IMG/VR virus record: IMGVR_UViG_3300025849_000055
Coordinates: 1-49,588 of that record
DNA: 49,588 bases
Source: a virus
Strand: one strand, 5' to 3'
Part shown: piece by piece, positions 2,208 to 29,551 of the stretch
Position numbering within the stretch: the stretch's first letter is position 1
Layout of the letters: each line of letters starts with the position of its first letter
Made by a program: the position numbers and the translations under genes
The notes under the pieces: generated by a model
The model's input: only the letters and a program-made list of their open reading frames with translations
Told to the model about the DNA's origin: nothing
Databases searched by the model: none

Positions 2208-2218
2208 TCTATTATCCT
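2205..2218 (-). promoter_or_regulatory. Ribosome-binding site and GTG start of gene 14
   Basis: On the minus strand AGGATAA (2212-2218) lies 7 nt before a GTG at 2205-2207, and its TAA is also the stop codon of gene 13. This Shine-Dalgarno match fixes the GTG as the start of gp14. Ribosomes finishing gp13 would be placed directly on the gp14 start. Confidence 0.75.
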
Positions 2219-3180
2219 ATCATATCGACTGCGGGCAAAGAATAACTTGAAGCCATTTCTTCTTCAAGTCTTTGAATCTCTTCTCGTGCATCGCTTAAAA
2301 TTTGTTCTCCATTGAACTGAACGCCACCGGGCAATGTCATGCCATTGAACTTAGTGAGATTTGATCCCCACTGATATTTAATTTTTGCTGTTGCGTAGTT
2401 TTGCAAGAAACGATCTTTCCACAAGTCTGTGTATGTAGTACCGTCAACAACTTGATATGCTTCGACTACAACATGAGTTCCTACAGCCAGTGAGTCTAAG
2501 TTAGTGTCTAGAAACAGTCTATTTGTGTGTCTATTATATCGCATTGGAACTGCGCCTACTAACAGTTCTTCCATAAGACTAAGATTAGCCATTGACATAT
2601 AGAAGTGAGTCATGTTATAATTCATTATATCGTGAAGATTGTGCAATACAAACTGATACTTTGCGTTAAATATTCCAGACCCCGTACCAACATTAGACTC
2701 TGGTGTGAACACATTTACGGCACCTATGATGTTATCTGGAATCTCAATGTAGCCAAGTTCAAAGATTCCTTTTGTGATACCTGAGTTTGCTGAAGATTCA
2801 ATTGTTGCTGTTGTGGTAGAGTCTTCTCCAGTTATAACTTCGCCATGCACAAAAGCTACATCATTAGTTGGCTTGCTATATGTAATCTCTGCACCAGATA
2901 CCTCTAGAATTACTGCTTTAGCACCACCTGCGCCTGTAATGATCTCACCTACAGTGAAGTTCTCTGCTGTACTTGTAGTTAATTTAAGTGCTGAATTAGA
3001 TACTTTGTGCTTGAAATAAGTCTTTTCTACTCCATCAAAGTGATAGTCGTTATAATATGACAGTGCCTCATCAACTCTATCGTCTACTTGCTCAGTAGAA
3101 ACATTGATATCGATTACTGGTTTTCCCAATTTTCTGAGACAAAACTCTTTGAAGTCTGCTTTAGTTGTTGGCTGTGCCAT
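2212..3180 (-). CDS. 13: Neck protein gp13 (head completion)
   Basis: Homologue of T4 gp13, partner of gp14 in the neck. The N-terminus (FKEFCLRKLGKPVIDINVST, then DRVDEALSYYNDYHFDGVEK) corresponds to T4 DVILRRLGAPIINVEL and ALELYGEYHFDGLNK. The C-terminal part has VVEAYQVVDGTTYTDLWKDR, LQNYATAKIKYQWGSNLTKF and GMTLPGGVQFNGEQILSDAR, matching the T4 YATALAKELNGQI...MMLPGGVTIDGQRLIEEAR region. The 322 residues are close to T4 (309 aa). An insertion of about 70 residues (57-125, nt about 2805-3012) carries the paired pattern FTVGEIITGAGGAKAVI / FVHGEVITGEDSTTTATI, which is also seen in gp7. The first gene of its leftward unit, it has an AGGAATAA ribosome-binding site and a late-type box 32 nt upstream of the ATG. 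Confidence 0.93.
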   Translation of the reverse strand: MAQPTTKADFKEFCLRKLGKPVIDINVSTEQVDDRVDEALSYYNDYHFDGVEKTYFKHKVSNSALKLTTSTAENFTVGEIITGAGGAKAVILEVSGAEITYSKPTNDVAFVHGEVITGEDSTTTATIESSANSGITKGIFELGYIEIPDNIIGAVNVFTPESNVGTGSGIFNAKYQFVLHNLHDIMNYNMTHFYMSMANLSLMEELLVGAVPMRYNRHTNRLFLDTNLDSLAVGTHVVVEAYQVVDGTTYTDLWKDRFLQNYATAKIKYQWGSNLTKFNGMTLPGGVQFNGEQILSDAREEIQRLEEEMASSYSLPAVDMIG

Positions 3181-3211
3181 GCTTTATTCCTAAATTATGT
3201 TGATATAATAC

Positions 3212-3219
3212 TATTTATA
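3212..3219 (-). promoter_or_regulatory. T4-type late promoter box for gene 13
   Basis: Exact TATAAATA on the minus strand, 32 nt upstream of the gp13 ATG. In T4-like phages this box is read by the late sigma factor gp55. Transcription would begin roughly 10 nt before the AGGAATAA ribosome-binding site. A second minus-strand copy lies at 3261-3268. Confidence 0.65.
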
Positions 3220-3254
3220 ATCAATAGACTTGTGCTATTTTCAGATACAATGAG

Positions 3255-3272
3255 TATAAATATTTATAAATA
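3255..3272 (+). promoter_or_regulatory. Tandem T4-type late promoter boxes for the plus-strand cassette
   Basis: Two TATAAATA boxes on the plus strand, at 3255-3262 and 3265-3272, offset by 10 bp (one helical turn). They are followed 54 nt later by the ATG at 3327, which has an AAAGGA ribosome-binding site. They are the only visible promoter for the three rightward genes. Confidence 0.6.
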
Positions 3273-3326
3273 AGTGATAACAGACTTCGAATTAATATCT
3301 ATAATATATTCTAAAAGGATAAAAAA

Positions 3327-3644
3327 ATGTCAATACCAACAACTATTCCAACAATTGCCACTGTAAACGGCAATGGTGACTTTCCAGGCGTTAATGGATT
3401 CAACTACAATGGTGGTGTTACCCATTTTGCACTTTACGGCACATTTGCAGGGGCAACCATTACAATACAAGCATCTTTCGAGGAAGACGGATCCCATGTA
3501 TTCATTCCACTCACAGACGAAGCCGGTACTGGAGTTTCGATACAAGCTAACGAAGTTATAAAAATCGACATGGGTAAATGTAAGCTGAAATTTGTCGCTA
3601 CAGGTGCAACGGGTACTCCCGCTATAAAAATTAAGGCATCTTAA
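3327..3644 (+). CDS. Small beta-rich protein of unknown function, first gene of the inverted cassette
   Basis: A 105-aa protein with an AAAGGATAAAAAA leader before its ATG. It is rich in Thr, Ala, Gly, Ile and Val, with alternating hydrophobic residues (HFALYGTFAGATITIQASFE, then KIDMGKCKLKFVATGATG). This suggests a small beta-sandwich. There is no signal peptide or membrane segment. It ends one base before the ATG of the 769-aa gene and is probably co-expressed with it under a late promoter. Its size, composition and company suggest a small virion decoration or fibre-accessory protein, but I do not recognise a family and the role is inference from context. Confidence 0.7.
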   Translation: MSIPTTIPTIATVNGNGDFPGVNGFNYNGGVTHFALYGTFAGATITIQASFEEDGSHVFIPLTDEAGTGVSIQANEVIKIDMGKCKLKFVATGATGTPAIKIKAS

Positions 3645-3645
3645 A

Positions 3646-5955
3646 ATGGCTATAACCAGAGGGGTTCTATCTCGGGCTACTGAAGATCGAGTTGTTGTTA
3701 ATGTCCAAGAGGTGACAAATGACGAAAGTCCGCCTGTAATAAATGGCGCACCTTCAATAACATTAACTCCTTTGGAGGGAGCCGTTCATTCAACGACTCC
3801 AATTGCGACTGTACAAGCATCAGATAGGTTAAATTTCTCTTTCCAGAAACTGAGCGGTCCTACTGAAGTCACTATTGATCCTAATAATGGTCAAATAAAA
3901 ACGTCAAAAGCAGTATCAAAAACTGCTAGTTGGAATACGCCGAATTCGCCCGGAAATTCTTCTACAATTAAAGCAACAGACACTGCAGGCAATGATTCGT
4001 CTCTGACTACAATCAATATAAACCCTCAGTATGCGGGTGCGCTTGCAAGCTGGGCAACAGGTGAATCGGTAAGCCAAAGCACTAATATCATATCATATGA
4101 TCTTAGTAATTCTACTAATAACACTACCTTTCCTTATATGGATGAAGCGTTTAACGAATCGGAATTTGCAGGCTATTTTGATCAGTTGAATATTAATAAC
4201 AGCCCAGGAAGCACTAGTACTCAGCAATCTGGGTACGGTCGTGTAGAGGTTTTCGTGACTGACTTTTCTGACGATGACGCTCACACGCATATTAGGACAA
4301 TAGCAAGTGGTTCTAGTAATAATGTTCGGTTGGGTTTGGCGCAAAGTGGTAGTTTCGTTAAAACGTGGACAAGTGGAGATTCGATTGATGTAGTATTTGG
4401 TCTAGTACCAGATAATCATTACTACTATGAATTAATCACTAACCCAGGTTCACAGGGATATCCTAGCCAGTTTGGTGCTGATGAATTATTTAGAGATGCG
4501 CCTGATAATTGTATTAGAGTGCGACATTCTAGCGATGCAGATGATGTTACTATATCTACTGGTCAATTAGTAAATATTGGCGCAAAGAGATCAACGACAT
4601 ATGGTATATCCCCGACTATAAATTTCCCAACAGGTCTTATAAATGAGCAAGCTATTGGCAGTGTTACAAACAGTAATGGCGCTTGCTACTATGCTATTAA
4701 TAATGGTGATGGTACACTTTCTTTTGCAACTTCACGTTCAAATGCAGTCGCAGAAACCCCTGTTAAAGTTCAATTTTCTAACAGTGGTTGGGGCGGAAGT
4801 TATACAGATACATCAAGAACAAGTATTAGAATAAGACCAACCGCTCTTAGAAAACAAACATACACAGTTAGTGATCCATTTGAAGTGACTCATACTCCAA
4901 CACTAGCAAACCATACTCCTACACCTTGGAGTGGTGTCGGAGCGCCTGGCCAAGGGTCCACGATACAAGTATATTATTATGTACCCACTTTAGCGGCTAA
5001 TGCGTTTACCGATGTTATAGTCGCTAATATTTCTGGTGGAGTTGGTTCTTACACAACCAGTAATCCATACACTAGTTTCAGTGGTTATCAAATTGATACC
5101 AGTACGCCAAGTGTCTTTAAACTTCGACTACCACAAAATCAGACTGCATCCGGAACATATGTTCTTACTGTTGCTGATCAGGCCGGAGGTGCGAGAACTG
5201 TATCCTATACAGTGCAACCCGTTAGTGAAATTGTACTTACTTCTGGAAATAATGTGAGCATTTCATCAAGTTATAGCACTGGAGTTGTTGCTCAAGTGAC
5301 TTGTTCAGGTGGAAATGGTGCTTACACATTTGCGATTAATGGTGGCGCTACTACCAGTTCCTTAATTAGTAATGGACTGTCTATTAATAGTTCTAACGGA
5401 GAGATATCTTTAAACTCTGGGGTTGGTGCCGGAAGTTACAATGTAGGTTTCAGGGTTACAGATAGTTTAGGCAACTTCGAAGATTTTACTATTAATTTAG
5501 TTATAGCAGTCCCAGTAGTACAGACAATCACGATACAAGGTGTGGGATCACCTACTGGTGGTGTGTACTATTATGGCTACAGTGGGGGGCAATATGGTGG
5601 ATCAGGTACCATATCGCCACAAGTTGCACCATTTCCTTCGTTTGTTAGCGGTAATGTAACTTTAGGTGTTTATTATCAAGTCGCATTCGGTAGCTATAAC
5701 TTCTATGTGAACATAAATAATAATGGAGTTTCTTCAGGTATACCACAAAACACATTCACTCAATTAACAATTGATGATGGAGTTAATGTAAGGGTGTTTG
5801 ATACGTCTTCTGTGTACCATGGCTACTTAGCAAACCTTGGGTCAGCCCCTAATAGATATAGCCAATGGCGATGGGGCTTCAGCCCAGGAGATGCTCAATA
5901 TCAAAGAATTGTTAATATGAGCGCAGGCGATACAATTACACTCACCTTTACTTAA
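3646..5955 (+). CDS. Ig-like multi-domain virion/adhesion protein
   Basis: A 769-aa protein without signal peptide. It contains several segments of the putative-Ig / cadherin-like type: about residues 28-127 (ends TIKATDTAGNDSSLTTININ), about 441-526 (ends TYVLTVADQAGGARTVSYTV) and about 528-622 (GNGAYTFAINGG then ISLNSGVGAGSYNVGFRVTD then FTINLVI). The GxGxYxVxxxVTDxxGN pattern is the hallmark used here. A Tyr/Gly-rich stretch (about 635-655, YYYGYSGGQYGGSG) introduces a distinct C-terminal beta domain. Phages commonly carry Ig-like domains on surface proteins, where they aid weak binding to cells or surfaces. It lies second in a three-gene rightward cassette, 16 nt before the 920-aa gene. 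The domain class is fairly clear; its place in the virion is inferred. Confidence 0.75.
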   Translation: MAITRGVLSRATEDRVVVNVQEVTNDESPPVINGAPSITLTPLEGAVHSTTPIATVQASDRLNFSFQKLSGPTEVTIDPNNGQIKTSKAVSKTASWNTPNSPGNSSTIKATDTAGNDSSLTTININPQYAGALASWATGESVSQSTNIISYDLSNSTNNTTFPYMDEAFNESEFAGYFDQLNINNSPGSTSTQQSGYGRVEVFVTDFSDDDAHTHIRTIASGSSNNVRLGLAQSGSFVKTWTSGDSIDVVFGLVPDNHYYYELITNPGSQGYPSQFGADELFRDAPDNCIRVRHSSDADDVTISTGQLVNIGAKRSTTYGISPTINFPTGLINEQAIGSVTNSNGACYYAINNGDGTLSFATSRSNAVAETPVKVQFSNSGWGGSYTDTSRTSIRIRPTALRKQTYTVSDPFEVTHTPTLANHTPTPWSGVGAPGQGSTIQVYYYVPTLAANAFTDVIVANISGGVGSYTTSNPYTSFSGYQIDTSTPSVFKLRLPQNQTASGTYVLTVADQAGGARTVSYTVQPVSEIVLTSGNNVSISSSYSTGVVAQVTCSGGNGAYTFAINGGATTSSLISNGLSINSSNGEISLNSGVGAGSYNVGFRVTDSLGNFEDFTINLVIAVPVVQTITIQGVGSPTGGVYYYGYSGGQYGGSGTISPQVAPFPSFVSGNVTLGVYYQVAFGSYNFYVNINNNGVSSGIPQNTFTQLTIDDGVNVRVFDTSSVYHGYLANLGSAPNRYSQWRWGFSPGDAQYQRIVNMSAGDTITLTFT

Positions 5956-5971
5956 AATATGAGAAAAAACG

Positions 5972-8734
5972 ATGGCTACTAGGAAGTATTTAAAATTTGG
6001 GTTGAGAGCAGATAAAAATCTAGCTGATTTAACTGATAGTACAACTGCATTGGGTAATTGTCTTAATGACATAACCAGTGTGAATGATATAGATGGTACC
6101 CCAACTGGGTTTACTGTATCAGACTTGAGTCCCCTATTTGTGATTGCAGATAGTGATATAGATGAAACATTCGACTATACTAGACCGGCAGTTCCGCCAT
6201 ATGCGTTTACTAGACTAAAAGGGACTAGAGCGCAAGCGACAGTTATCGATAGTCTAGGTAGACAAAGCACTAAAGTTATCGAACCACAATTAAGAATACA
6301 AGACTACTTAGATAAGTATAAAACCGTATTTGGTGATCCACCTTTTATTAATGGTGGATCAGGTCCTATAGCAGACTTTATTCCAACAGACAGAATCAAC
6401 AGTAGCACTCAACAAGTTGGTTCTGTTGTTTCTGGTGATGATATTGTTTCGGGTAACGTATATAGACTGATTCAAATAGGGTCTCTTAGTGTTTTTAGTG
6501 CGGCATGGGATTCTCTAGGAGTGGCGACACCAGTTCCACTTGAAGATTCTAGCGGAACTGTTATCAATGCAACTACTTCTAGTGTGTTTACTGCATTACA
6601 GGCTGGCAGTGCTTCATTCCCAGGCGCATTGTTTATGAATATTTCAGTGCAGACCGGTAGTTACGAATCTCCCGAAGCTAACATAGCACCAAGTAACTTA
6701 TCTCCAACTAAATTATACACAAAGATTATAGATAACAATACAACTAACATTTATGTTGATGATTCTTACTGGAACGCCACCGGAAGATTCGTCATAAATG
6801 GTAGACTCTTTGATAACTTTCCAGACGCTAATGGTATATTACAGTTTACTGGTTATCAGGACGGGTCGTTTTCTCCGATAATATCGACTAATGGATTGTT
6901 TTTGTTAGAGCAGGATATAACTGCAAACGAATCCACAGAAGACAACTGGGAAACGATAAGAGGGGGTCTGAGCGATTCGTTTATACCATTCTATCCATTC
7001 TCATATGAGACCGAGTCAAACGCCGGAATTACGAGAATAACCTTTGATTCGAATGGAAAAGACATTATTAAGTTGGCGACTGGAATGTCTGTGACGATAA
7101 CAGATGGTGCTGAAGAGTTAACTGGTAATGTATCAACTGTATCTATTGATGGAAACTATGTAGATTTAGATTTGGACCTCGCTGTTGATAGTGGTGGAAC
7201 GACATATTCTAGACAATTACTAGTGATATCTTCAGAATTGGGTGGAGAAGAAGTATCTTTTTCTAGTATGGGGATTGCTCCAGTAGGATTTTCGCAGAGA
7301 AGAAGAGTTAGATACACATACTACTGGCCTGAAACCACATCGAATATCAACGCAAAGGCTGCGGGTGATATAAGCACTAGTCAATTCGGGTTTGAGAACT
7401 TTTACCCAGTAAACTCAAGTCAAAATTTCGACAGTAAAAAATATAGCTATCCATACTACCGTCAAAAAAGGGCAAGTCCTTTAAACGAATTAGCTAATCA
7501 CGAGTTAAAGGTGACAACAACCTTAAAGGATAGATATATACCAAAAAGTCTATCTAGTACTATTACACCACCTCTTCTATATAATTCCACTGGTCCTGAG
7601 ATGGTGGAAACTGAAGTATCTTTTAACAATCTAGGAAGATGTACTATATTTAGTGACGATTCTCGTTATAATGCATTTTTGTCTATTCAAGTAGGCGATA
7701 TTGTCACAATTTACAACACTGACAACTCCTCTTATATTGCATTTAAGATTGAAACGCTTGAGATAGATAATAATAACACATCTCCGGCAGCTGATAATAT
7801 TACATTTACTATCGACCCAACATTTGCTCTAAGTTTCTTAGCTGTAGATACTTCATATAAAGCAATTATATTAAGAAACGAAGGAATTGCCGGTATATAC
7901 AAATATGTAAATGATGGTGGTGATAATAGAGCGAACATTATAACTAGTGGTGGAGTCGGTGGTTCAATATCGTATTTCGTCAATGAGATATTCGAAGACG
8001 ATTTAGTGTATAAAATAGAGTTTACTGGTGGAGCCGGTAACTCTGATGTAAATCAATCTGGATTTAGAGTTACTTCAGTAGATCATAACAATACACCAGG
8101 TACTCTAAATGCTGACTTCACAGTTCAGGCAAACCCAAACTATAGTGAAACATTCGATAATAGTACTACTGGATTACTTGCTGTCTATCGATCAAAAGGT
8201 TTGATTGAAAAATCAACAGTATCAGAATGCTACGGGGTGATAGGAAAAGAATCTACTGCTCAAGTTAATTCGAATAACAATACCATAGACATTACAGATG
8301 TTACTGGTATATCTGTTGGGAATTTTGTGTATTTTGATGGTGTTATTCCTCATGGTTCTACAGTTGCTAGTATTATCAACACTGGTGGTCAAACAGCAAT
8401 TTCATTGAATGGTAGTAATGTGACATCAGCGGTTCTGTTAAAGGGATCAACTATAGTTTTTGTTGATCACACAGTTGATAGTACGGGTGATGGTAATGCT
8501 GATGGTTGGGAGGGGTTAAATAAAGAATATTGTATTATTCCATTGAACACTGCTCCGCCTTGGTCAGGAACTCCAGTAGGACTTAAAACTCCAGATGCTA
8601 ATCCTAATGTCGTGGCTAAAGAACTTAGATTCTCTAGATTGTCGTTTACATTGCCTACTACGAACATAACGGAAACTGTACCGACATCAACTCGCACATA
8701 TTTAAATATGACGTATACCGACCCAGATGGTTAA
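5972..8734 (+). CDS. Large virion-type protein, probable fibre or fibre-associated
   Basis: A 920-aa protein starting MATRKYLKFGLRADKNLADL, a type of N-terminus I associate with structural proteins of marine T4-like phages (from memory, not searched). The ribosome-binding site is weak (GAGAAAA). It holds a degenerate copy of the shared YxIxxxG module (about nt 6432-6612, VYRLIQIGSLSVFSAAWDSL) and a copy of the second shared module (about nt 8275-8475, NTIDITDVTGISVGNFVYF). Both also occur in the leftward tail proteins. Near the C-terminus is a TSP3-like Asp/Gly loop (DSTGDGNADGW). The presence of the same modules as the leftward fibres argues that it belongs to the virion. Its stop overlaps the stop of the convergent 728-aa gene by 4 nt. 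The exact role is unknown. Confidence 0.72.
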   Translation: MATRKYLKFGLRADKNLADLTDSTTALGNCLNDITSVNDIDGTPTGFTVSDLSPLFVIADSDIDETFDYTRPAVPPYAFTRLKGTRAQATVIDSLGRQSTKVIEPQLRIQDYLDKYKTVFGDPPFINGGSGPIADFIPTDRINSSTQQVGSVVSGDDIVSGNVYRLIQIGSLSVFSAAWDSLGVATPVPLEDSSGTVINATTSSVFTALQAGSASFPGALFMNISVQTGSYESPEANIAPSNLSPTKLYTKIIDNNTTNIYVDDSYWNATGRFVINGRLFDNFPDANGILQFTGYQDGSFSPIISTNGLFLLEQDITANESTEDNWETIRGGLSDSFIPFYPFSYETESNAGITRITFDSNGKDIIKLATGMSVTITDGAEELTGNVSTVSIDGNYVDLDLDLAVDSGGTTYSRQLLVISSELGGEEVSFSSMGIAPVGFSQRRRVRYTYYWPETTSNINAKAAGDISTSQFGFENFYPVNSSQNFDSKKYSYPYYRQKRASPLNELANHELKVTTTLKDRYIPKSLSSTITPPLLYNSTGPEMVETEVSFNNLGRCTIFSDDSRYNAFLSIQVGDIVTIYNTDNSSYIAFKIETLEIDNNNTSPAADNITFTIDPTFALSFLAVDTSYKAIILRNEGIAGIYKYVNDGGDNRANIITSGGVGGSISYFVNEIFEDDLVYKIEFTGGAGNSDVNQSGFRVTSVDHNNTPGTLNADFTVQANPNYSETFDNSTTGLLAVYRSKGLIEKSTVSECYGVIGKESTAQVNSNNNTIDITDVTGISVGNFVYFDGVIPHGSTVASIINTGGQTAISLNGSNVTSAVLLKGSTIVFVDHTVDSTGDGNADGWEGLNKEYCIIPLNTAPPWSGTPVGLKTPDANPNVVAKELRFSRLSFTLPTTNITETVPTSTRTYLNMTYTDPDG

Positions 8735-10917
8735 GACGAAGGCGTTGCTAATATTCTATAATTTCCTGCCGCAACATCTGATGCTGAAGAGTTAGCTACG
8801 AGGAAATACTCTTCACCATTGACGATGATTGGTATCTTATGTGTAATAGTTTGACCAGATATATTTACGCTCGTAGGCACTCCACTTGCATCGTCTGGAA
8901 AAGCTGTTAAACCATCGTGGATGATCGTATCATTATTCTCATCTTGGTAAGAACTTTGTAAAGTTGCAATCTGCTGACTATTAGTAAATAATAGCTTAGG
9001 TTCACCTATAGCTTTTCCGCCTGATCCTGATGTGTTTATGGAAGAATCATCTGCTGTGAACGACACTCCTACGGCAGGAGTAACTCCATTGAAGTTTCCT
9101 GAGGTTGTCCACTGTCTACTAGTACCCAAGTCTGTTATTGTGTAATTTTCTCCGTCAACAAATGACCCATAATCTGTTTCATCTTCTCTAGCGAAGTTGA
9201 AGTCGCCCGCTTGTGCTATTGCAGACGAAGTGAAGAGTGCAGGGATATTTATAGACACGCCTCTGGTGCTTATAATTTTATTAATATCATTCCAAGGATT
9301 GTCTTTACCAGTAAACGCTCTTTTTGCCTCATCAGTCATCGAGTTATGGATATATAATCCTGGCGGCTCTAATGCTTTTGCAGTAGAACCTGAAGAACCT
9401 GCGTTACCCACCCCTGTTGCGATAAAGATAACCGGATACGCTTCAGCATTTTGAATGGTTAAGCCAGCACCACTTGCATTTGCTGTAAAGAAATCACCAA
9501 CTGAATATGTAATTGGTGAGGAAGTCGTTCCGCCTATTGTATTCCAAATACTCTGTATATCAATGGTTAGTGTATAATTCGTACCAACACTAGGTACAGA
9601 GAATGATATCGCATCACCATCGACTGTTAATGAGAGTTTTATTTCAGAGATTGTTGAACTGTGAACAAAGTAATCAGCATTTGCAGGCAACTGTGTAATA
9701 TCATCATCAGTCGCCAGTTTAGTTAGTCGTACTTTGTTTCCTGCTACAAGTGAATGACCACTTCCAAGATTTATTGTATTTGATCCACCATTCATATCAG
9801 AGACACCAAAAGTTTTAACGCCTCTAGTATCCGTTCCTAAACTCTTTATCTTATAGACAACACTGTTTGTATTGTCAAAGCTGCCGTCTTCTACTATTTT
9901 AACACCAGTTGCAATAGTCCCTGCGCCAATATCGTCCCAGTCAGCACCACTACCGAGTGTAGTAATTTGATATTTTTCACCCACCACTAAAGAACCGAAG
10001 TCTGTTGGGGCTCCAACAATAATAGGAGTCCCACTAGATGGATTATTTACTATACTTAAAACTCCAGTAAGCTGTACGCCGTTTCTGGGCGAGAAAGTAT
10101 TTGGTTGATAGGTTAGAATAGTGTTTTTCTTTTTATAATTTATATCAGATATAATGTCATCTATGAGAGGTATTCGATATACGAAAGGGTCTTTATATAA
10201 CTCATCATCATCGGATTCCGCCTCTTCACCCTCACCAAGACTACTATCCTCAGCACCACTTTTTACAATAAGTTTTCTAATGTTTATAGGCAATATACTA
10301 TCATCTCTGGTTAAAGAGACTGTAGTAATGTCAGTCAATGGTAGTGTAGCCTGTGAAACTATATTTCTTAATTGAAAACTCTCTACACCATCGCTATTGA
10401 ATACTTCATAGTCGTAGCCAGCCTCGCTGTTTAATCTGAGTTTAGTACCATCTGGAAATGCTCTTTTACCTCTAAGTAAGTTGGCCTTAAAAGTCCAACC
10501 ATCAAGTGGATCATTTACTGCAAATAAATCTTGTCTGGGTAATACAGGAACAACTATTCCTCCCTCTCCGGCAAAACTAAACCCAGCATCAGTAGCTACG
10601 AATATATCGTTAACTTGTACAGAATCACCTGTTCCATACTCTGAATTATTTGCCGACCAACCAACAAGACTCCAATCTCGCCCTTCTCCCAAAGTCATTA
10701 TTTTATATTTAAGACCTAGTGTTAAGAACCCATAATCTACAGCAGGGCCGACAGCATTTGGATCGTTTTTTAGTCTAGATACGAACTTATTATTTCCATC
10801 GAAAAGTCTAATGTCATCTGCAATACCGCCTTTACCCAAGTTATTGAGTATGGCGGCATCACTAGTTGAACTATCACTTTCCACTAAGTTTAAATTCTTT
10901 ACAAATCCTTGAGCCAT
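8731..10917 (-). CDS. Tail fibre-type structural protein with repeated modules
   Basis: A 728-aa protein with an AGGAAAG ribosome-binding site. The N-terminus (MAQGFVKNLNLVESDSSTSD, then NNLGKGGIADDIRLFDGNNK) resembles the start of marine T4-like phage fibre proteins, as far as I recall, and probably attaches the protein to the virion. The rest is built from repeats. Four copies of the YxIxxLGxGxDW...VGxxFxA module lie at about nt 10588-10734, 9890-10010, 9470-9600 (degenerate) and 9020-9175. One copy of the second shared module is at about 9600-9810 (NTINLGSGHSLVAGNKVRL). There is no enzyme motif. It is the last gene of the leftward fibre cluster and ends convergently on the plus-strand cassette. 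The family-level function is inferred. Confidence 0.75.
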   Translation of the reverse strand: MAQGFVKNLNLVESDSSTSDAAILNNLGKGGIADDIRLFDGNNKFVSRLKNDPNAVGPAVDYGFLTLGLKYKIMTLGEGRDWSLVGWSANNSEYGTGDSVQVNDIFVATDAGFSFAGEGGIVVPVLPRQDLFAVNDPLDGWTFKANLLRGKRAFPDGTKLRLNSEAGYDYEVFNSDGVESFQLRNIVSQATLPLTDITTVSLTRDDSILPINIRKLIVKSGAEDSSLGEGEEAESDDDELYKDPFVYRIPLIDDIISDINYKKKNTILTYQPNTFSPRNGVQLTGVLSIVNNPSSGTPIIVGAPTDFGSLVVGEKYQITTLGSGADWDDIGAGTIATGVKIVEDGSFDNTNSVVYKIKSLGTDTRGVKTFGVSDMNGGSNTINLGSGHSLVAGNKVRLTKLATDDDITQLPANADYFVHSSTISEIKLSLTVDGDAISFSVPSVGTNYTLTIDIQSIWNTIGGTTSSPITYSVGDFFTANASGAGLTIQNAEAYPVIFIATGVGNAGSSGSTAKALEPPGLYIHNSMTDEAKRAFTGKDNPWNDINKIISTRGVSINIPALFTSSAIAQAGDFNFAREDETDYGSFVDGENYTITDLGTSRQWTTSGNFNGVTPAVGVSFTADDSSINTSGSGGKAIGEPKLLFTNSQQIATLQSSYQDENNDTIIHDGLTAFPDDASGVPTSVNISGQTITHKIPIIVNGEEYFLVANSSASDVAAGNYRILATPSS

Positions 10918-10926
10918 TATACTTTC

Positions 10927-13900
10927 CTAGATTTCGTCCATGTCTATAGTCCAACCATATGTTGAGGTTAGTACCTGATATTTTTTCTTTGGATGACTTG
11001 GGTCATCAGTATCGCCGGGTATATCATCTAGTGCCCTAACCGATAGTCTTACTGCTAAACCATTTCCGTCCAAATACTTACCTACGCCATTCAATGCAAA
11101 CCCTCGTTGCCCCTTTAGATATACAGCAACATTTCTTCTTGGTGTTGGAGAATCCACCAAAGCAGTTGTATATAGATCAGCAATTAAATCACCGGCAACA
11201 GATGCGGGTAGTCTATTGTTCTGAAGATTTATCTTATTAGTTTCATTACAAAAGGCAAGACTGAATGGAGTATATCCATCAAAATCATTAATAGAGCAAT
11301 TAATATCCAAGACTTTAATTGCCGCTGAAAAGTCTGGAATATTTCCAGTAAAGTTGTTGCTCGAAATGTCAAAATATCTCAAGTTGCCGGCTACAGGTTT
11401 TGGGAAGCTACCAGAGAAAGAATTTCGTTGAATTTTATAGTCAGATAATGAAGTCAAACTATTCAAAGCATCAATACTTCCAGTATATCCTAGATTAAAT
11501 AAAGCATTTTGTGTGGCGTAAGAGACTCGTCTAAATCTAGCACCGGTGTCGTTAGATGAATTTCCTGCGCCACCGCCTAGATCATAATACGATTGTCTTT
11601 CAGCTATGGCTCCATAGCCTGTACTATATGAAGATGAACCAGATGCGTCAAACTCATCACCATAACTTCTTACACCGCCTCTGCTACTCCAAGGCGCATT
11701 TGATGGGCCTGTACGAACCACTCTATAACTTTGACCATTAAATAAATGCTTAAGGTGTACTCTGTTCATATTAGAACGACTCTCGGCAGGCAAGAATATG
11801 TCTCCAACCTTCGGGTTAGAACCTGTTTGGTTTTCAGTACCTTGATACCCTGAAAAATTGGTAGGATATGGAGTATTCGCTACCCAACCCACATTTTCCC
11901 ATCTGAATTTTATTTGCGCCGGAGTACCTGATCCTGTGTCTGATATAAGACACCACAGACCCGGAGTAATATTATCAATATTTGATTCTTTATATCTCAA
12001 ATACTGGTTATTCTGAGGTGTAGTCCCGTATGCTGAAGATGTGCTAAAATCTACATGGGTTTGATCTGTGTCACCGGCGCTCCAACCAAAATCTTCAAAT
12101 TCTTTGTGATATAAATCACCATAGTAATTCAAGTTAAACATTGTTGATGTTGACGATATTCTATTGATTCTATATATTGCACCAACATTAGCGGCCTGTG
12201 GACTTGAAAGCCTACTTTTATTATTATATAGAAAACACTTCTCTAAACGAGTTTTACCACTCAGAGACGGAAAAGCTCCAGTACCATTAACAGTAATGGA
12301 ATAAATCTGTTGTAGGTTTGTGCATGATTCCAGAGGTATACTATATACTTCTGAGTTTTCTGGATTATCGTTTACCCATCTTGTAGATGTGGAATGATGA
12401 CCGTACATAAAGAGATACCGAAGCGAATTTTTGATATCGTCAAAATGTTTACCCGTTCTATTTGGTCGACCGTCTATTCCCCAGAAATCTCCTAAAGCGT
12501 TATAACCTACACCATGATCATATCTCGTACTTCCTCTAGGCCCATAATATTGGTAATAATACATTCTTTGGTTATTGCCACTAAAGGTATTGTCGTCAGG
12601 TGTAAATTTAAGCCCTGTATTATAGTAAACCCTAACTAGTCTTAGGTTGGGCTTAGCCGCCATGTACCCAGAGAAGTTTCCTCTAACTGACCTATTACCA
12701 TTGAGCGAGTACTGCCCGCAATATCGTACAAATAAGTAGGTCATGGCCGAATGCCCGGCGATCTTATCAGATGTCCATGTTCTATCTGCCAAAGAGTAAT
12801 ACGGATCTGGCTCAAAATGATTCAACCAGAACGTAGATAAGTTTGGATTATTGGATATATCAACAGTATTGTGATCAGTGTATGCACTGCGGAAATATGT
12901 TAGTTTTTTACTTCTACAGTACACACTTCTATCGGCATTACTCTTTAATCTGTCAGCAGATGAGACATTATTTGCCATAGTGCCAGCAACATACGGAGTT
13001 TTATTGATAGATTTAAGTGGTACAGAGTAATGATCCCACCTAGTCAATTCTTCACTATTACACATATGTCTAGATAAGTAGTTATATGCCGCATAGTGTA
13101 TTTTTTCTTCTTTGATTCCTTTGTATACTGGATCAATGAATATATCATCAGCAACATTCGGTCCCGCCCACTTGTGCAGAGAGTGAAGAAATCCGTTGGA
13201 AGCAGTATATGCGCCTGAAATGATTGCTGACCCACTTGTATTTCGCAATTGAAATGAATCTCCAGACACACTGTGAACTTGATAGATAGTTCCATCAGCA
13301 AGACCAGAAAGATTACTACCCATTTCGCCAGTAAACACCATAGCGGTTATAGGTGTGCCATCATCATATGCATGATATTGATATCGAACATAGTCGTTAT
13401 CGGCAAACCTATGATTAGCAATTGTAAACGTAGCGGTAGTGCTATTAACCGAATATACGCTTCCAATAGCCGGATTGAAAGTTACCATATATGATGGGTC
13501 TGGTCCTATAGGACTACTTCCAATACTAGTAATTCTTGGAGTACCTCTTTCGCTATTTGTCGCTCCAATCTGGAAGTTCTGGACATTTACAAGATGTGAA
13601 TAATCAATAGATATATTACCTTGAAAAGAGTTACGCAAATCTACTTTCTCCAAACTAGGTGGAAGTCGATTAATTTGCTCTTGAGCAACTATTTGGTTTA
13701 GCTGATCATTGACATTTCCCTCTGTACTAGGGTAAAGGGCTTCTAGATTGCCTAATCCTAATTCCTCTAGATATTGCCACCCATTCATAAGATCATTGTT
13801 CGTCATCTGCAATTCTAGCAGACCCGGTGCTATAAATTTAAAGTCTGGTATGACCTTGAACTTACCACTATTTAGAAGAACCCTAGACAGATTTTCCATT

Positions 13901-15063
13901 TTGGTAAAGGGAAACTCTTTTGTATATAGTCCACTAAATCTAATTTCACTAATCCTGCTTGGTGGATAGTATAGATTGAATGTATGTGTAGATGCCGAAT
14001 TCAACCCACTTTCATTTACATATGAAAGACGATTAGCGGCAACTACGGCTGCATCAAACTTATATGGAGGAGTGTTTAGTGTAATGTCTTGTCTTTTAAT
14101 CGAAAATGGTACTTTTCCTAAGTTGTCTTCTAGAATTGGTAGATTACCAGTGGTTGCGAACTGAGCAGTATAATTGCGAGTTCCACTAAACTCCCATGAC
14201 AAAGGTATACCCTTCATTACTGGGAAGTCCACGTTAGCACCATTAACATTAAGTCTAATAGTATGGGTAGGAATCTCTCCCCTAAACTCTTTTACTACTG
14301 GTTCTGATGTAACGCCTAGTTGAGTTAGAGACAGATATTCTCCAGAAACTTCTAGTTTAGCACCATAAGTTATATAGCTGTCTGGATTCGGATCACCAAT
14401 GGGCGACCAAGAAGAGACCCTTGATGTTGAAATGTCTGCACTTTTGATCGGCCACTTCTTTAAATGAAGCATGGTGATGTTAGTAAAATCGGTGACATTG
14501 GAGCCTGCGTTTAATCCACTCAAAACAAAACTAGTTTCCGATGGGGTACCCGTTACAGTATAATCACCATCAGTCAGGTCACTACCAGTATCTGCTACTC
14601 TTACTTGATCGCCAGCAACTAGAGTGTATGTTTTACCATTGACCACATTGGTTAATAATCCAGTGCCGGTAACAGTATTAGTGCCTGCAGTGACACCAGT
14701 GATATCTTTTATTGGAACAAGTTCAGGATTATTATAGTCAATATAATCATACTTGATTGCTCCTGCAATAACTCTATCATTAATAGCAAGATTATAGTTT
14801 TGAGTAGCATCTACTTCTTTAAATGTCTGTATTTGACCTTTTGCAGTACGAGCAGACTCTAACTGAGAATAGAACAATCTATCCTGATTATCAACCAAAC
14901 CAGAGATTTGATGAAAGTCAGCAACACCCAACTCTTCTGTACGCCTAACATTTCTAATCAAATCCAAGTCGGCTATTCTAAGACCTAGGTTAGCCAGAGA
15001 TTGATCAAAGCGATCTACATCAATAAGCGAGTTGGCTACATTTAATCCTCTGAGAATTGCCAT
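10927..15063 (-). CDS. Giant fibre-type protein with leucine-rich-repeat-like segments
   Basis: A 1378-aa protein. The N-terminus (MAILRGLNVANSLIDVDRFD, then SLANLGLRIADLDLIRNV) looks like a virion-attachment segment. LRR-like segments occur at about residues 356-512 (LSRVLLNSGKFKVIPDF, INRLPPSLEKVDLRNSFQGN), 950-1010 (LESCTNLQQIYSITVNGTGA) and 1199-1302 (GNLRYFDISSNNFTGNIPDF, NKINLQNNRLPASV). The LxxLxxxxNxFTGxIPxF form recalls the plant-type LRR consensus. Between them are one copy of the HxF...xGDxV module (about nt 13170-13460) and two of the YxI...G module (about 11630-11745 and 11785-11970). Another module copy lies at about 14450-14700. LRR folds usually bind proteins or glycans, so a receptor-binding role is plausible but unproven. 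It sits 9 nt upstream of the 728-aa gene. Confidence 0.75.
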   Translation of the reverse strand: MAILRGLNVANSLIDVDRFDQSLANLGLRIADLDLIRNVRRTEELGVADFHQISGLVDNQDRLFYSQLESARTAKGQIQTFKEVDATQNYNLAINDRVIAGAIKYDYIDYNNPELVPIKDITGVTAGTNTVTGTGLLTNVVNGKTYTLVAGDQVRVADTGSDLTDGDYTVTGTPSETSFVLSGLNAGSNVTDFTNITMLHLKKWPIKSADISTSRVSSWSPIGDPNPDSYITYGAKLEVSGEYLSLTQLGVTSEPVVKEFRGEIPTHTIRLNVNGANVDFPVMKGIPLSWEFSGTRNYTAQFATTGNLPILEDNLGKVPFSIKRQDITLNTPPYKFDAAVVAANRLSYVNESGLNSASTHTFNLYYPPSRISEIRFSGLYTKEFPFTKMENLSRVLLNSGKFKVIPDFKFIAPGLLELQMTNNDLMNGWQYLEELGLGNLEALYPSTEGNVNDQLNQIVAQEQINRLPPSLEKVDLRNSFQGNISIDYSHLVNVQNFQIGATNSERGTPRITSIGSSPIGPDPSYMVTFNPAIGSVYSVNSTTATFTIANHRFADNDYVRYQYHAYDDGTPITAMVFTGEMGSNLSGLADGTIYQVHSVSGDSFQLRNTSGSAIISGAYTASNGFLHSLHKWAGPNVADDIFIDPVYKGIKEEKIHYAAYNYLSRHMCNSEELTRWDHYSVPLKSINKTPYVAGTMANNVSSADRLKSNADRSVYCRSKKLTYFRSAYTDHNTVDISNNPNLSTFWLNHFEPDPYYSLADRTWTSDKIAGHSAMTYLFVRYCGQYSLNGNRSVRGNFSGYMAAKPNLRLVRVYYNTGLKFTPDDNTFSGNNQRMYYYQYYGPRGSTRYDHGVGYNALGDFWGIDGRPNRTGKHFDDIKNSLRYLFMYGHHSTSTRWVNDNPENSEVYSIPLESCTNLQQIYSITVNGTGAFPSLSGKTRLEKCFLYNNKSRLSSPQAANVGAIYRINRISSTSTMFNLNYYGDLYHKEFEDFGWSAGDTDQTHVDFSTSSAYGTTPQNNQYLRYKESNIDNITPGLWCLISDTGSGTPAQIKFRWENVGWVANTPYPTNFSGYQGTENQTGSNPKVGDIFLPAESRSNMNRVHLKHLFNGQSYRVVRTGPSNAPWSSRGGVRSYGDEFDASGSSSYSTGYGAIAERQSYYDLGGGAGNSSNDTGARFRRVSYATQNALFNLGYTGSIDALNSLTSLSDYKIQRNSFSGSFPKPVAGNLRYFDISSNNFTGNIPDFSAAIKVLDINCSINDFDGYTPFSLAFCNETNKINLQNNRLPASVAGDLIADLYTTALVDSPTPRRNVAVYLKGQRGFALNGVGKYLDGNGLAVRLSVRALDDIPGDTDDPSHPKKKYQVLTSTYGWTIDMDEI

Positions 15064-15066
15064 TTA

Positions 15067-18000
15067 TTATTGTTCCCTACTAGTTATGGTCAGTTGAATA
15101 TTTCCGTTATCTGCGGTAGGATCTACTTTTGTTGCTGTTATAAACACCGCTTTATTATTTAGTGCGCCACGACTAATGTCTTTTCTATCTCTCTGGAATA
15201 TATTACTTAATCCAATAGCAACTGTGTCGTTTGCCCCAACATAATATGAATATATAACTTGACCGGGTCTCAATGGATTCAAAAGAGTTTCGTCATACCT
15301 ACAAGCGGATAGTCCAGTATCACCATTAAATGCAGTAGGCGTATTCGTACTAGTCGTAAACGGCTGGGCAGGAAATTGTAAATTATCGTTCCACAATACA
15401 TCTTCGTGTACGAAGTTAGGCGTATGCGTAGTGACTATTCCCTGCTCAGATATTTCTTCTATAACAATACCATTAATTCTAGAGTCATCACTTAAAGCAA
15501 AAACTGGATACAGTGGTTGATCAGAAAAACTTACCGCTTGAACTATGCTAAATTCTTTATGTCGGAAAAGTCTATCTCCATTTTCGTCTAAAGAAAACGC
15601 TCTCCAGTTATCTTTTAACGTGATAGTTTTAGTCTGAATAACTTTGGGTGTTCCATTTGCACCAGTTAATGTCTCTGGATTATATGTTTCTAAATGGCCC
15701 AGTAGTCCTTGTTCAGCGTAGATATAAGGACTAGTATTCTCTTCGTCTTCTATAGTTGGAACAATAACGTCACTTGTGTAAAAGAAACCTGTGCCAGCAA
15801 AGTTTACGCCTACTTCAGAAGTACCTTGTTTTATTTCCCCACTCGATGGATATGATCCACCTTCAGCAAAGACGATCTTACTTCTTTCTATTCCATCTGA
15901 ATCATTTTCAAGAACTATTTCTTCGAATGCGTAGTTAATTGTACCTACTTCTCCTGCAACACAAGATATATTTCCTATATCCTCACCTTCTAATTTATTC
16001 TCGGCAACCCGATCCAGTCTAGGATCTACTTGAAGACGATCACCATAACTTGGGTCCCACTCTCCTAGACCAACTCTATCTCTCTCGTCAAAGTCTGTGT
16101 TGTAATGACAAAACTCTACAGACGGAAAGTCGTCTCTATTATATTCTACATACTCGCCTGTAGAAACTTCAAACTTAACCTCTGGATCACTATCGTCTCG
16201 GTCAGTCGTTGCAAAGGGTTTATGTGGCGTAACTCCTATAAGAAACTCGGCAAATTGCTTTCCACTATTTACCAATTTTCTAGCATTTAGAAAATGTATT
16301 TTAAACTTATTCTTAGTAATACCAATATCAGAAGAAACTACTGTATTGTAGTTTACAAGACTCGCTTCGAAGAATTTCTGTGGATTGGTTTTTGCGTCAT
16401 CTATTCTGAAAATACTTCCATCTAGTCTTCTAGTATCTTCGGCTACAGATTCCTCTAGAGCATAGGAGTAACTATTATACTTGCTATTGATTCCATTGCC
16501 ATTTCTTTTCAGTATACCACCATCTTCTCCGATAGATATGCCATATACACCATCTGCGATCACATGAGCATAGTAGTCATTATTCGTACCTAAAGCGTAG
16601 TTACTCGAACCAGTAGAAACATTTAACTGTCTTTTAAGATATGCCAACTGATTGGTGATACCATTGCCGGGAAGCGCACCATTTGCGTCAACATTATGCA
16701 CATAATTCGATGTCAGTACAATACTGGTTTTATTTTCACTGTCATATTCTTTCAAATCTGATGTGGTAAATGTGAGGCCTGTGGTGCCTCCTACTGAAGA
16801 AGTTATGTTATTTCCGTTAAGATTACTCAACTTAAATGCAGTAACACTATTTCCACTTGATCCTGTGATAATACTAGTTACTTCAAAAACTTGGTTTGTG
16901 GGATAATCATTAATAGCACTGTCAGTATCTGTTCCACTAACCTCAAATCTTTCCCCTAGTCTTATCTTTCTTGCATCACAAGTAAAGTGTCCAGTTACAT
17001 TTGTTACAGTAACATTTTGAAGAGGTCTCTGATTGGTGAACTTCTTAATCTTATATTGTGTGATTGGGTCCGATCCCATATACAGACAATCTCCAACCTG
17101 TAATGTATCGAAAGTTTTTATCAATGCACCAGAGTTAATAGAAACTATATTAGAATCCTGAGTTAAGTCAACAGAAAATCTATCATTCACAAGAGGAAAC
17201 TTAGGTTGTCCCGCACCATCAGCTATATCGTTAGAGCCGGTTTCGCCAGGACTAGATCCTGGTTGAACGAGAGCGATTCTATTTAACTCTCCAAGCCCTG
17301 AGTTTGTATATTTTGCAACGACTTTTCTAGTCTTTGGATGCTTACCATTCATCCAGATGCCTGGGCTATAGTTAAAATGTACTCCCATCGGAGACCCATT
17401 TACTTCTTCTATATCTATTCTAGCAAATGTGTCAGACGAAACAGAAATCTGATCTGGATATGATTTTTTATAGTTTTGCCTGTCCTCACCCTGAGTATTA
17501 GCAAGTGTTTCTTTTGGTAAAATACCTAGTATTGAAGTTCTAGTGTCGAACTCCTTTGTTGTTGTGCCAACAGAATTTAGTCTTATAGTGCCTTCGTCTC
17601 CACCATCAATATAGCAACTACTACCATATTTGTATAGATACATTGGCTCTCTGATATCTTTGGTATCACTTGTGTAAATAAGATACCTGAACTTGAAATC
17701 TGGATTTTCTAGAACAGGTTCGCCTAATCCATTCTCGATAACGAATGTGTGTAGAAGAACCCATCTACATTCATCATTTTCAATTGGAACATACGCATAG
17801 AATTTAGCACCAATTGCGCCATACCAAGAGAACTCGATCTTATACATCGTAACATCTTCAAATGATAATATGTAACCAGAATCTCCATCTCCCTGTAACT
17901 TATCACCATTCCATGCATCTCTTCTAATTACAGTTTCCCAAAGTCTACTATCGGTACCTATACCATACTGAGTAACTTGGGTAGAACTTTGATCATTAGC

Positions 18001-19245
18001 CGAAAGACCTTGTCGCTCAAGAAGTTCATCGGGCATCTTAACAGTACTTCTGCGAATAATGCTGAAGCTAGACCCTTTAAGTTGAAACATATATTCATCT
18101 GTATTGTTAGAGCAACCCCACTCTGCAATTTGATCCTGTGCTATAGCACTACCCGCAATCATTCTTGCACCAAAAGTAAATCCACTAGAACGACCAGGTT
18201 GATATCTAAAACTTCTTTTGCTCTGAAGTATACCGTAATGAGTTGTACTTGATGAGTCGCCAGGAATAGTGTCAGAACTACTACAGAACGCTCTAATCAG
18301 ATTGTATTCACCGAAAGCCTTATAACCCTCAATAGCAATTCTGCCTTCTGGGTCTGATTCTAATGCGATTAGAGTAGCCGGCATTTTTGGATACCCGTCA
18401 GTACGGGCTATGATTTTATCATAGAATACAGTCCATCTCTCAATAGCATCAAATGAGGTTTGTAAGAGAGGTTTACCATATTTGACATCATACCAAGTGT
18501 CTTTAGTGTTAAAATCTAAAACAGACCCTGCTTTATCGAATGTAAAGTCTAAAATGACATTATCTTCAACGTCAACGATTGTAGCATCTTCTTCCGAGAG
18601 GAAATTTCTATTAGCAAAAACAGGGTTGACAGAAATAAATAAGTTATAAAGATATCTTCCTAAAGCAACAAAATTCATATAATTTTTGAATTTTAGTGGT
18701 ATTTGCCCTTGGCCTATCTTTCTCTCTTTTGAGCCTTTTGGGTAAGTATATTGAGTAGGAAATGCGCTTAGATAGAGTGCTTGTTCGTCAGACCCCTCAT
18801 AAAATCTAACATTTGATCTTCTACCATAGACTGGATGCTCTTTTTCATACCATTGATAAGGATCGTTACTATGACCAATGTATATATCACTCGCATCCCA
18901 GTTCTCGGTGTCTAGACCGTATGTAGCAACATCAGAAAAAAGAGAAAGCTGTGTCTCTGCTCTGGGAACACCTAGTAATGAAGAACTAACCTGAGAAGTT
19001 TCTTTAAACTGCTCTACAATAGGTATAGATTCGCCACCATTAGGTATGCCAGGATTGTTATTGACATGAACACTTAGGGAATTGTCAGCTTTAGTGAGTG
19101 ACGTAAGTGCGGCACTTTCTTCAGTTACGAGAGGGTTCCCCGCATCATCAAATAGCGGGGTACCTTCTCTGTCGATAAGCTGTATAAACTGCTTTGTGAT
19201 CGGGGCCGGAGTTTTGTCGTACCCGATCTTTATTTGCTTTGCCAT
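15067..19245 (-). CDS. Giant structural protein, paralogue of the adjacent 1597-aa protein
   Basis: A 1392-aa protein sharing an ordered set of motifs with its upstream neighbour: SIPIVEQ...SSSLLGVPRAETQLSLFSDV (residues 73-105), KRSFRYQPGRSSGFTFGARM (about 341-360), MYKIEFSWYGAIGAKFYAYV (about 465-484) and YKYGSSCYIDGGDEGTIRL (about 536-555). The last two form a characteristic block that I recall from marine T4-like phage virion proteins. Between LLGVPRAE and FRYQPGR lies material absent from the paralogue. A copy of the second shared module is at about nt 16760-17000. No catalytic motif was found. Three bases separate it from the preceding gene. It is probably a fibre or baseplate-peripheral protein; the exact function is unknown. 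Confidence 0.75.
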   Translation of the reverse strand: MAKQIKIGYDKTPAPITKQFIQLIDREGTPLFDDAGNPLVTEESAALTSLTKADNSLSVHVNNNPGIPNGGESIPIVEQFKETSQVSSSLLGVPRAETQLSLFSDVATYGLDTENWDASDIYIGHSNDPYQWYEKEHPVYGRRSNVRFYEGSDEQALYLSAFPTQYTYPKGSKERKIGQGQIPLKFKNYMNFVALGRYLYNLFISVNPVFANRNFLSEEDATIVDVEDNVILDFTFDKAGSVLDFNTKDTWYDVKYGKPLLQTSFDAIERWTVFYDKIIARTDGYPKMPATLIALESDPEGRIAIEGYKAFGEYNLIRAFCSSSDTIPGDSSSTTHYGILQSKRSFRYQPGRSSGFTFGARMIAGSAIAQDQIAEWGCSNNTDEYMFQLKGSSFSIIRRSTVKMPDELLERQGLSANDQSSTQVTQYGIGTDSRLWETVIRRDAWNGDKLQGDGDSGYILSFEDVTMYKIEFSWYGAIGAKFYAYVPIENDECRWVLLHTFVIENGLGEPVLENPDFKFRYLIYTSDTKDIREPMYLYKYGSSCYIDGGDEGTIRLNSVGTTTKEFDTRTSILGILPKETLANTQGEDRQNYKKSYPDQISVSSDTFARIDIEEVNGSPMGVHFNYSPGIWMNGKHPKTRKVVAKYTNSGLGELNRIALVQPGSSPGETGSNDIADGAGQPKFPLVNDRFSVDLTQDSNIVSINSGALIKTFDTLQVGDCLYMGSDPITQYKIKKFTNQRPLQNVTVTNVTGHFTCDARKIRLGERFEVSGTDTDSAINDYPTNQVFEVTSIITGSSGNSVTAFKLSNLNGNNITSSVGGTTGLTFTTSDLKEYDSENKTSIVLTSNYVHNVDANGALPGNGITNQLAYLKRQLNVSTGSSNYALGTNNDYYAHVIADGVYGISIGEDGGILKRNGNGINSKYNSYSYALEESVAEDTRRLDGSIFRIDDAKTNPQKFFEASLVNYNTVVSSDIGITKNKFKIHFLNARKLVNSGKQFAEFLIGVTPHKPFATTDRDDSDPEVKFEVSTGEYVEYNRDDFPSVEFCHYNTDFDERDRVGLGEWDPSYGDRLQVDPRLDRVAENKLEGEDIGNISCVAGEVGTINYAFEEIVLENDSDGIERSKIVFAEGGSYPSSGEIKQGTSEVGVNFAGTGFFYTSDVIVPTIEDEENTSPYIYAEQGLLGHLETYNPETLTGANGTPKVIQTKTITLKDNWRAFSLDENGDRLFRHKEFSIVQAVSFSDQPLYPVFALSDDSRINGIVIEEISEQGIVTTHTPNFVHEDVLWNDNLQFPAQPFTTSTNTPTAFNGDTGLSACRYDETLLNPLRPGQVIYSYYVGANDTVAIGLSNIFQRDRKDISRGALNNKAVFITATKVDPTADNGNIQLTITSREQ

Positions 19246-29366: not shown

Positions 29367-29551
29367 TTCGTTATCTCTTTAACAGTGTTTTGTAGCAGAA
29401 GCAAAGCAGATTCTAACTTTTCTATTCTATGCTCCAACCCTTTGATATATTTAGCTTGTTTCTTTCTAGCTAAAGCCCTATCATAACCAATTGCATCAGT
29501 ATTAACAATACCTGAACCAGTACTTGATCTTATGTAAGTCTCAGATTCCAT
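29363..29551 (-). CDS. Small coiled-coil protein between the DUF4815 and collar-fibre genes
   Basis: A 62-aa protein joined to both neighbours by overlaps: TAATG at its start (with the DUF4815 gene) and ATGA at its end (with the collar fibre). Residues 1-25 are polar (SSTGSGIVNTDAIGYDRALA). Residues 28-60 form a probable coiled coil with heptad-spaced Ile/Leu (KYIKGLEHRIEKLESALLLL). The tight coupling and charge-patterned helix suggest a small linker or trimerisation partner for the neighbouring baseplate or fibre proteins, or an assembly factor. I do not recognise a characterised family, and the function is inference from position. Confidence 0.75.
   Translation of the reverse strand: MESETYIRSSTGSGIVNTDAIGYDRALARKKQAKYIKGLEHRIEKLESALLLLQNTVKEITK

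Follow-up and report, generated by a model that had tools for sequence, protein, structure and literature searches.

Why do three genes read against all their neighbours in the structural region of a T4-type virus, and do they travel as one unit? The locus lies in a DNA stretch of 49,588 nucleotides (the whole of it is called the window here; IMG/VR record IMGVR_UViG_3300025849_000055, positions 1 to 49,588). An earlier note, made from the letters alone, had described three rightward genes at 3327-8734 as an inverted cassette for virion parts that interrupts an otherwise leftward T4 gene order, and had suggested that it may be an exchangeable adhesion or host-range island. The open reading frames of 105, 769 and 920 aa (c105, c769 and c920) were recovered exactly, and 17 of the 20 coding ORFs chosen in the window read leftward, leaving these three on the plus strand. 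Comparison of the locus across relatives, which had been proposed beforehand as a check, divides the claim: the content of the slot in front of c920 varies, whereas the presence and orientation of c920 are constant. The related loci show two things, a conserved c920 and an exchangeable slot, rather than one island. The overall explanation that we consider probable combines a conserved inverted c920, a bidirectional late promoter and an exchangeable adhesin slot within the host-recognition region.

The T4-type order of the other genes is supported by PHROGs matches of gp13, gp14, gp15 and the baseplate wedge genes, together with a VrlC homologue (E 4e-111 to phiM12). The cassette has the three genes gp13-gp15 on one side; on its other side stand large fibre-type genes that read leftward, and to the right of these follow a gene for 551 aa with the Pfam domain Gp10_C, the VrlC homologue and the baseplate genes, whose gp numbers were inferred from the order annotated in cyanophage S-SM2 (gp25-gp6-gp7-gp8-VrlC-...-gp13-gp14-gp15). 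A 687-aa gene in the baseplate region (46926-48989) matched PHROGs 'peptidase' profiles (E 2.9e-12). Because gp13 of the window is less than 60% identical to every matched phage record and the closest proteins to the gp6-type one, at about 40%, come from Sinorhizobium phages, we place the window, by inference, in an uncultured marine clade of T4-superfamily myoviruses. No match of the window DNA to the phage records was obtained. As seen from the window and the relatives L058, L062 and L063, the gp13 proteins of this clade are 317-419 aa long, the extra length being variable, and those of more distant contigs about 247 aa.

Loci of gp13 and c920 relatives were mapped by profile searches, and the best 80 of 456 gp13 loci were kept. 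Relatives of c920 were reached first via the gp13 loci and then via an alignment; no relative emerged when viral contigs were scanned with c920 or c769 singly. The alignment-based search yielded 68 c920 loci, or 69 with the window. These contigs are not all distinct viruses, as L107, L108 and L109 with their identical locus map illustrate. Two c920 relatives were found in metagenome-assembled genomes of Opitutales (L162, JABBCA010000073.1) and Cellulomonadaceae (L163, NHEZ01000047.1); both are probably phage contigs binned with bacteria and so indicate no host. The features of the window are collected in Table 1.

Table 1. Positions of the cassette, its spacer and its neighbours in the window.
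Feature	Positions	Strand	Remark
gp13 + gp14	1404-3180		PHROGs
gp13	2212..3180	-	neck protein, divergent neighbour of the cassette; PHROGs
Divergent spacer	3181..3326		146 bp, late-type promoter motifs
ATAAATA motifs, minus strand	3212-3218, 3261-3267	-	in spacer
ATAAATA motifs, plus strand	3256-3262, 3266-3272	+	in spacer
Perfect palindrome TATTTATAAATA	3261..3272		two overlapping head-to-head T4-type late promoter elements
c105	3327..3644	+	105 aa, first cassette gene, no known domain
c769	3646..5955	+	769 aa, cargo protein of the window in the exchangeable slot
Putative c920-side joint	5961..6022		short conserved DNA stretch around the c920 start, common to L110, L088 and L082
c920	5972..8734	+	920 aa, conserved, always inverted, putative fibre-type structural protein
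TTAA	8731..8734		overlapping stop codons of c920 (+) and f728 (-)
f728	8731..10917	-	convergent partner of c920, conserved block
f1378	10927..15063	-	fibre-type protein, N-terminal anchor domain common to c920
f1392	15067..19245	-	next in conserved block, matches phrog_1645 virion structural protein
f1597	19249..24042	-	next gene of block, matches phrog_1645
VrlC homologue	29551..35442	-	far edge of the host-recognition region

The gene c920 lies on the strand opposite to gp13 in all 38 contigs scored, namely the window, 25 mapped loci and 12 further contigs. The latter come from 41 searched records, 13 of which had a gp13 match; one (G006) was dropped as a chance match (E 9e-4 in a 1738-aa frame). 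The gene is also arranged tail-to-tail with f728 at 65 of 65 scorable loci, after four of the 69 had been left out (L133 and L135 without a mapped c920, L121 and L122 as truncated contigs). The two stop codons overlap by 4 nt in 30 of these loci, and by 12 nt in 13; the window has the 4-nt overlap, in agreement with the earlier description of a cassette that ends flush against its convergent neighbour. The gene belongs to the conserved set of the clade, and because it is invariably inverted and coupled to f728, the way it faces is no argument for a recent insertion. All members of the clade have the reversal in common as a stable character.

The same counts bear on the idea that the cassette is a phase-variable adhesin segment, able to invert and sampled here in just one of its orientations. 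Invertible fibre segments occur in phages Mu (G) and P1 (C), and the cassette resembles them in being inverted relative to its surroundings and in its adhesin-like content. However, only short imperfect inverted-repeat pairs were found, none of which bounds the cassette, and relatives preserve the overlap of its last stop codon with that of the convergent f728. The absence of bounding repeats and the constant orientation contradict an inversion switch, and we give this reading next to no probability.

In all 12 further contigs with a credible gp13, c920 is located about 7 to 30 kb away from it, so c920 is constantly tied to the fibre block rather than to the neck gene. This distance also separates the cassette from the T4 wac (whisker) locus, whose place it had been said to occupy: the position between fibre genes and gp13 stands in the window but not in all relatives. 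A cassette equivalent to the whisker (wac/fibritin) would be a collar fibre attached to gp13, and the c105-type genes, which always adjoin gp13, would suit such a role. A search of Pfam and PHROGs (E<=0.1) gave no fibritin hit for c105, c769 or c920, though, and the structural model of c920 is beta-rich instead of a long coiled coil, which makes a whisker equivalent very improbable.

The earlier claim that the 920-aa protein carries the same modules as the leftward fibres holds for one of them. Comparison of the N-terminal domains of c920 (46 non-redundant rows) and f1378 (42 rows) by hhalign gave a probability of 95.3% (E 2.3e-8), and the c920 profile independently matched f1378-type frames in distant contigs (best E 8.5e-9). 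In contrast, the hhalign comparisons of the c920 N-terminus with f728, f1392 and f1597 all stayed below 1%, the f1597 set consisting of two rows of which one (L092) looks like a misassigned f1392, and BLASTP inside the window matched c920 to no other gene at E<=1e-3. The genes f1378 and f1392 come after f728 wherever the loci extend far enough. The best explanation of c920 is, on these profile comparisons, a fibre- or adhesion-type structural protein with an N-terminal anchor common to f1378.

Curated fibre families in Pfam and PHROGs gave no match for f728, f1378, c769 or c920, and the c920 family has none in PHROGs beyond one marginal match of one member. While a first AlphaFold model of c920 was poor (pLDDT 56.5), the model obtained with a deeper alignment is beta-rich and multi-domain (single chain, pLDDT 74.0, pTM 0.60). 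Searches of solved structures by sequence returned no match for c920 and one sub-threshold match each for c105 and c769, and Foldseek of the c920 model against the PDB gave nothing convincing. Against viral models the best probability was 1.00 but with a TM of 0.09-0.10, which is too low for naming a fold. VIA-align ranked an anti-sigma factor domain-containing protein first (Z 10.9 over 130 residues), and residues 335-421 gave single-domain matches of Z 7-8, among them T5 pb9, the N4 tail and also proteins that are not from phages. In 50,697 phage records, tblastn with c920 (members of the window, L018, L147 and L099), c769 and f728 found nothing, and profile searches of the gp13 regions in DLP6, phiM12, Melnitz, HTVC008M and P-TIM40 gave only E >= 0.1. 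As a counterpoint to the structural assignment, relatives of c920 and f728 are therefore absent from all searched phage records.

Two further observations concern the fibre block. Residues about 185-362 of gp15 (247-1404) align at E about 1e-23 with an inner part of the profile built for the f728 family, so that the tail-sheath-stabiliser gene gp15 and the fibre-type gene f728 appear to have a module in common. Internal stretches common to f1392 and f1597 suggest a duplication.

The divergent late-type promoters ascribed to the cassette were also recovered as sequence motifs. The spacer between gp13 and c105 contains four ATAAATA motifs, two per strand, and their clustering is kept in relatives. 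Over the whole window the motif is not enriched (17 found versus 20.2 expected, four of the 17 in the spacer); the putative promoter signal is the clustering in the spacer and its conservation. Among 36 spacers heading the c920 unit, which are distinct by exact sequence only, 83 ATAAATA motifs were counted versus 8.0 (sd 2.9) expected in first-order simulations, with a motif directed toward the c920 unit in 34 and away from it in 35. The palindrome TATTTATAAATA is present in 27 of the 36, compared with a simulated mean of 0.19 spacers and a maximum of 2. The nine spacers without it (L130, L136-L138, L140, L146-L149) head c920 homologues of 731-842 aa. The 10-mer core of the palindrome has 57 copies in 1.25 Mb of loci, 36 of them within these spacers and one in the window, and two copies within about 211 kb of reference sequence (six regions).

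The T4 late promoter is described as consisting of one TATAAATA element, which spans -13 to -6 (PMC1524935), and T4 late promoters as lacking a -35 element (PMC2988020); at the present locus the TATAAATA late-promoter element is found upstream of the putatively late genes. Because such a promoter is a single element without a -35 element, the palindrome, whose promoter activity we infer from the motifs, could initiate in both directions, though probably not simultaneously.

Behind this spacer lies the exchangeable part of the locus. A gene of the c105 family is directly divergent from gp13 in 11 contigs including the window, and the family was found only beside gp13, in cassette-bearing contigs. 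The large gene behind it, here termed cargo, encodes proteins of 769 (window), 477, 916, 926, 403, 869 and 1037 aa, and two further cargo proteins are cut by the contig end at 641 and 687 aa. Among eight cargo proteins scanned, five contain Pfam Cadherin domains (L003, E 2.9e-48; L004, 2.1e-32; L096, 4.5e-23; L086, 4.4e-20; L088, 4.3e-8), and L083, L084 and L085 have no Pfam match above the cut-off. The cargo proteins have a short N-terminal segment in common, as judged by eye in the alignment. For c769 itself, nothing in Pfam exceeded the cut-off, with sub-threshold Ig/cadherin-like signals only, and a full-length relative was not found. BLASTP aligned about 100 residues of c769 with the L084 cargo (E 3.6e-6); phmmer against the eight other cargo proteins gave nothing at E<=1, and hhalign against the cargo N-terminal profile gave 10.7%, which is not significant, seven other window proteins and the reversed sequence scoring below 1%.

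In some contigs a further gene of about 110 aa precedes c920. The slot of other relatives is occupied by an unrelated small leftward gene (about 110-136 aa), whose family occupies 57 loci but is missing from every one of 16 cassette loci that were searched; because of this distribution the two slot contents are mutually exclusive alternatives. The small gene was considered as a homologue persisting in cassette loci and rejected, the family being absent from all 16.

Such a slot might hold a passenger, that is, c105 and c769 could be a moron-like insert at a hypervariable position, with a promoter of its own, c920 alone being structural. Most relatives lack c105 and cargo, c769 has no family match above the cut-off, and the corresponding slot of Pelagibacter phage HTVC008M holds an inverted block of oxygenase-type genes. 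Against a passenger speak the late-type promoter motifs and the proteins that relatives encode there, which are cadherin-domain proteins with a common N-terminal segment and not enzymes. A foreign base composition was rejected, since the GC content of the cassette resembles that of its surroundings, and no terminator-like site flanks it. We therefore regard a passenger as unlikely.

Exchange of the slot can be followed between close relatives. The window and L086 have 92% DNA identity across gp13 and the promoter; this similarity stops at position 3339, 12 nt inside c105, beyond which the two are unrelated apart from short patches. At the protein level the two are 95% identical for gp13, 44% for c105, 38% for c920 and 45% for f728, and c769 is unrelated to the L086 cargo. 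Contig L083 agrees with L084 at 88% DNA identity over gp13-c105-cargo; beginning with the c920 start it follows L086 instead, at 95%, and about 100 bp at this start match both; to judge by these alignments L083 is evidently a recombinant. Five contigs that form one gp13 clade were rejected as a clade for c920 (p-AU 6.4e-7), these five rows having been picked after the protein identities had been seen. The mosaics point to recombination joints at the starts of c105 and c920. At the latter, cassette relatives have a second ATAAATA element and a strongly conserved stretch of about 55 bp; the window is without a second c920 promoter and has 16 bp between c769 and c920. The suggested exchangeable island thus narrows to the c105/c769 slot, which is swapped between apparent recombination joints; it does not extend to the cassette as one unit, in which c920 is conserved.

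Building on the gene content, orientation, promoter-motif conservation, mosaicism and anchor homology observed here, we propose that c920 is expressed late from its opposite strand by a bidirectional T4-type late promoter. The slot before it, filled by c105 and a large cargo gene in the window and ten other contigs and by the small leftward gene elsewhere, would be swapped by homologous recombination at two joints, one at the divergent promoter and c105 start and the other at the c920 promoter or start. The cargo would most likely be a secondary adhesin, displayed on the virion via c105 and/or its own N-terminal peptide, and its exchange would alter attachment to the host. Location in the virion, receptor binding and an effect on host range are predictions from sequence, and Cadherin and Ig domains are also found in proteins that bind no receptors. 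The proposal would divide host-recognition variability in uncultured T4-type ocean phages into a fixed part (c920) and a swapped part (cargo) with located joints, and would offer markers for linking metagenomic contigs to adhesion types. The putative palindromic late promoter may couple two divergent operons.

A more far-reaching version holds that the palindrome is a true bidirectional late promoter with mutually exclusive directions, that the slot is a dedicated landing site, and that c105 is a universal adaptor for cadherin-type adhesins. The exclusion would follow from the geometry, since the late promoter element measures only 8 bp and its copies have 4 bp of the palindrome in common. We put this version forward tentatively, as possible but more doubtful than not. 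If true, the palindrome would tie the dose of the inverted c920 and the cargo to the opposite operon, and the clade would have a second host-recognition device beside its ordinary fibres.

A literature search did not turn up this arrangement, although that does not prove it undescribed; several known systems resemble it in part. The T4 wac (fibritin) locus is similar in its position between fibre genes and gp13, as seen in the window, and in the module swapping described for this surface fibre gene (PMC3797505), but the cassette lies on the opposite strand, shows no fibritin sequence match and has a c920 that is not tied to gp13. HTVC008M also has rightward genes before gp13 that run against the structural direction. 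These are six genes (L153, 14668-17947) annotated as oxygenases, ferrochelatase and a hypothetical protein; unlike the cassette, the block is not of structural type, and a profile search found no c920 or c105 relative there. Host recognition modules common to unrelated Alteromonas phages are a further example of horizontal fibre-module exchange in marine phages (PMC10579305), although the module described there, a tail fibre with a chaperone, belongs to other protein families. The closest parallel is the hypervariable host recognition cluster reported between VrlC and the neck gene gp14 in pelagimyophages and cyanomyophages, a hypervariable island in the structural region that is tied to tail fibres (PMC7029224). 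Our locus likewise lies between VrlC and the neck genes and differs in gene content between close relatives such as the window and L086. It is part of the host-recognition region known at this position in marine T4-like phages, and differs from the described cluster in its conserved inverted gene, its predicted palindromic divergent late promoter and its defined two-joint cargo slot.
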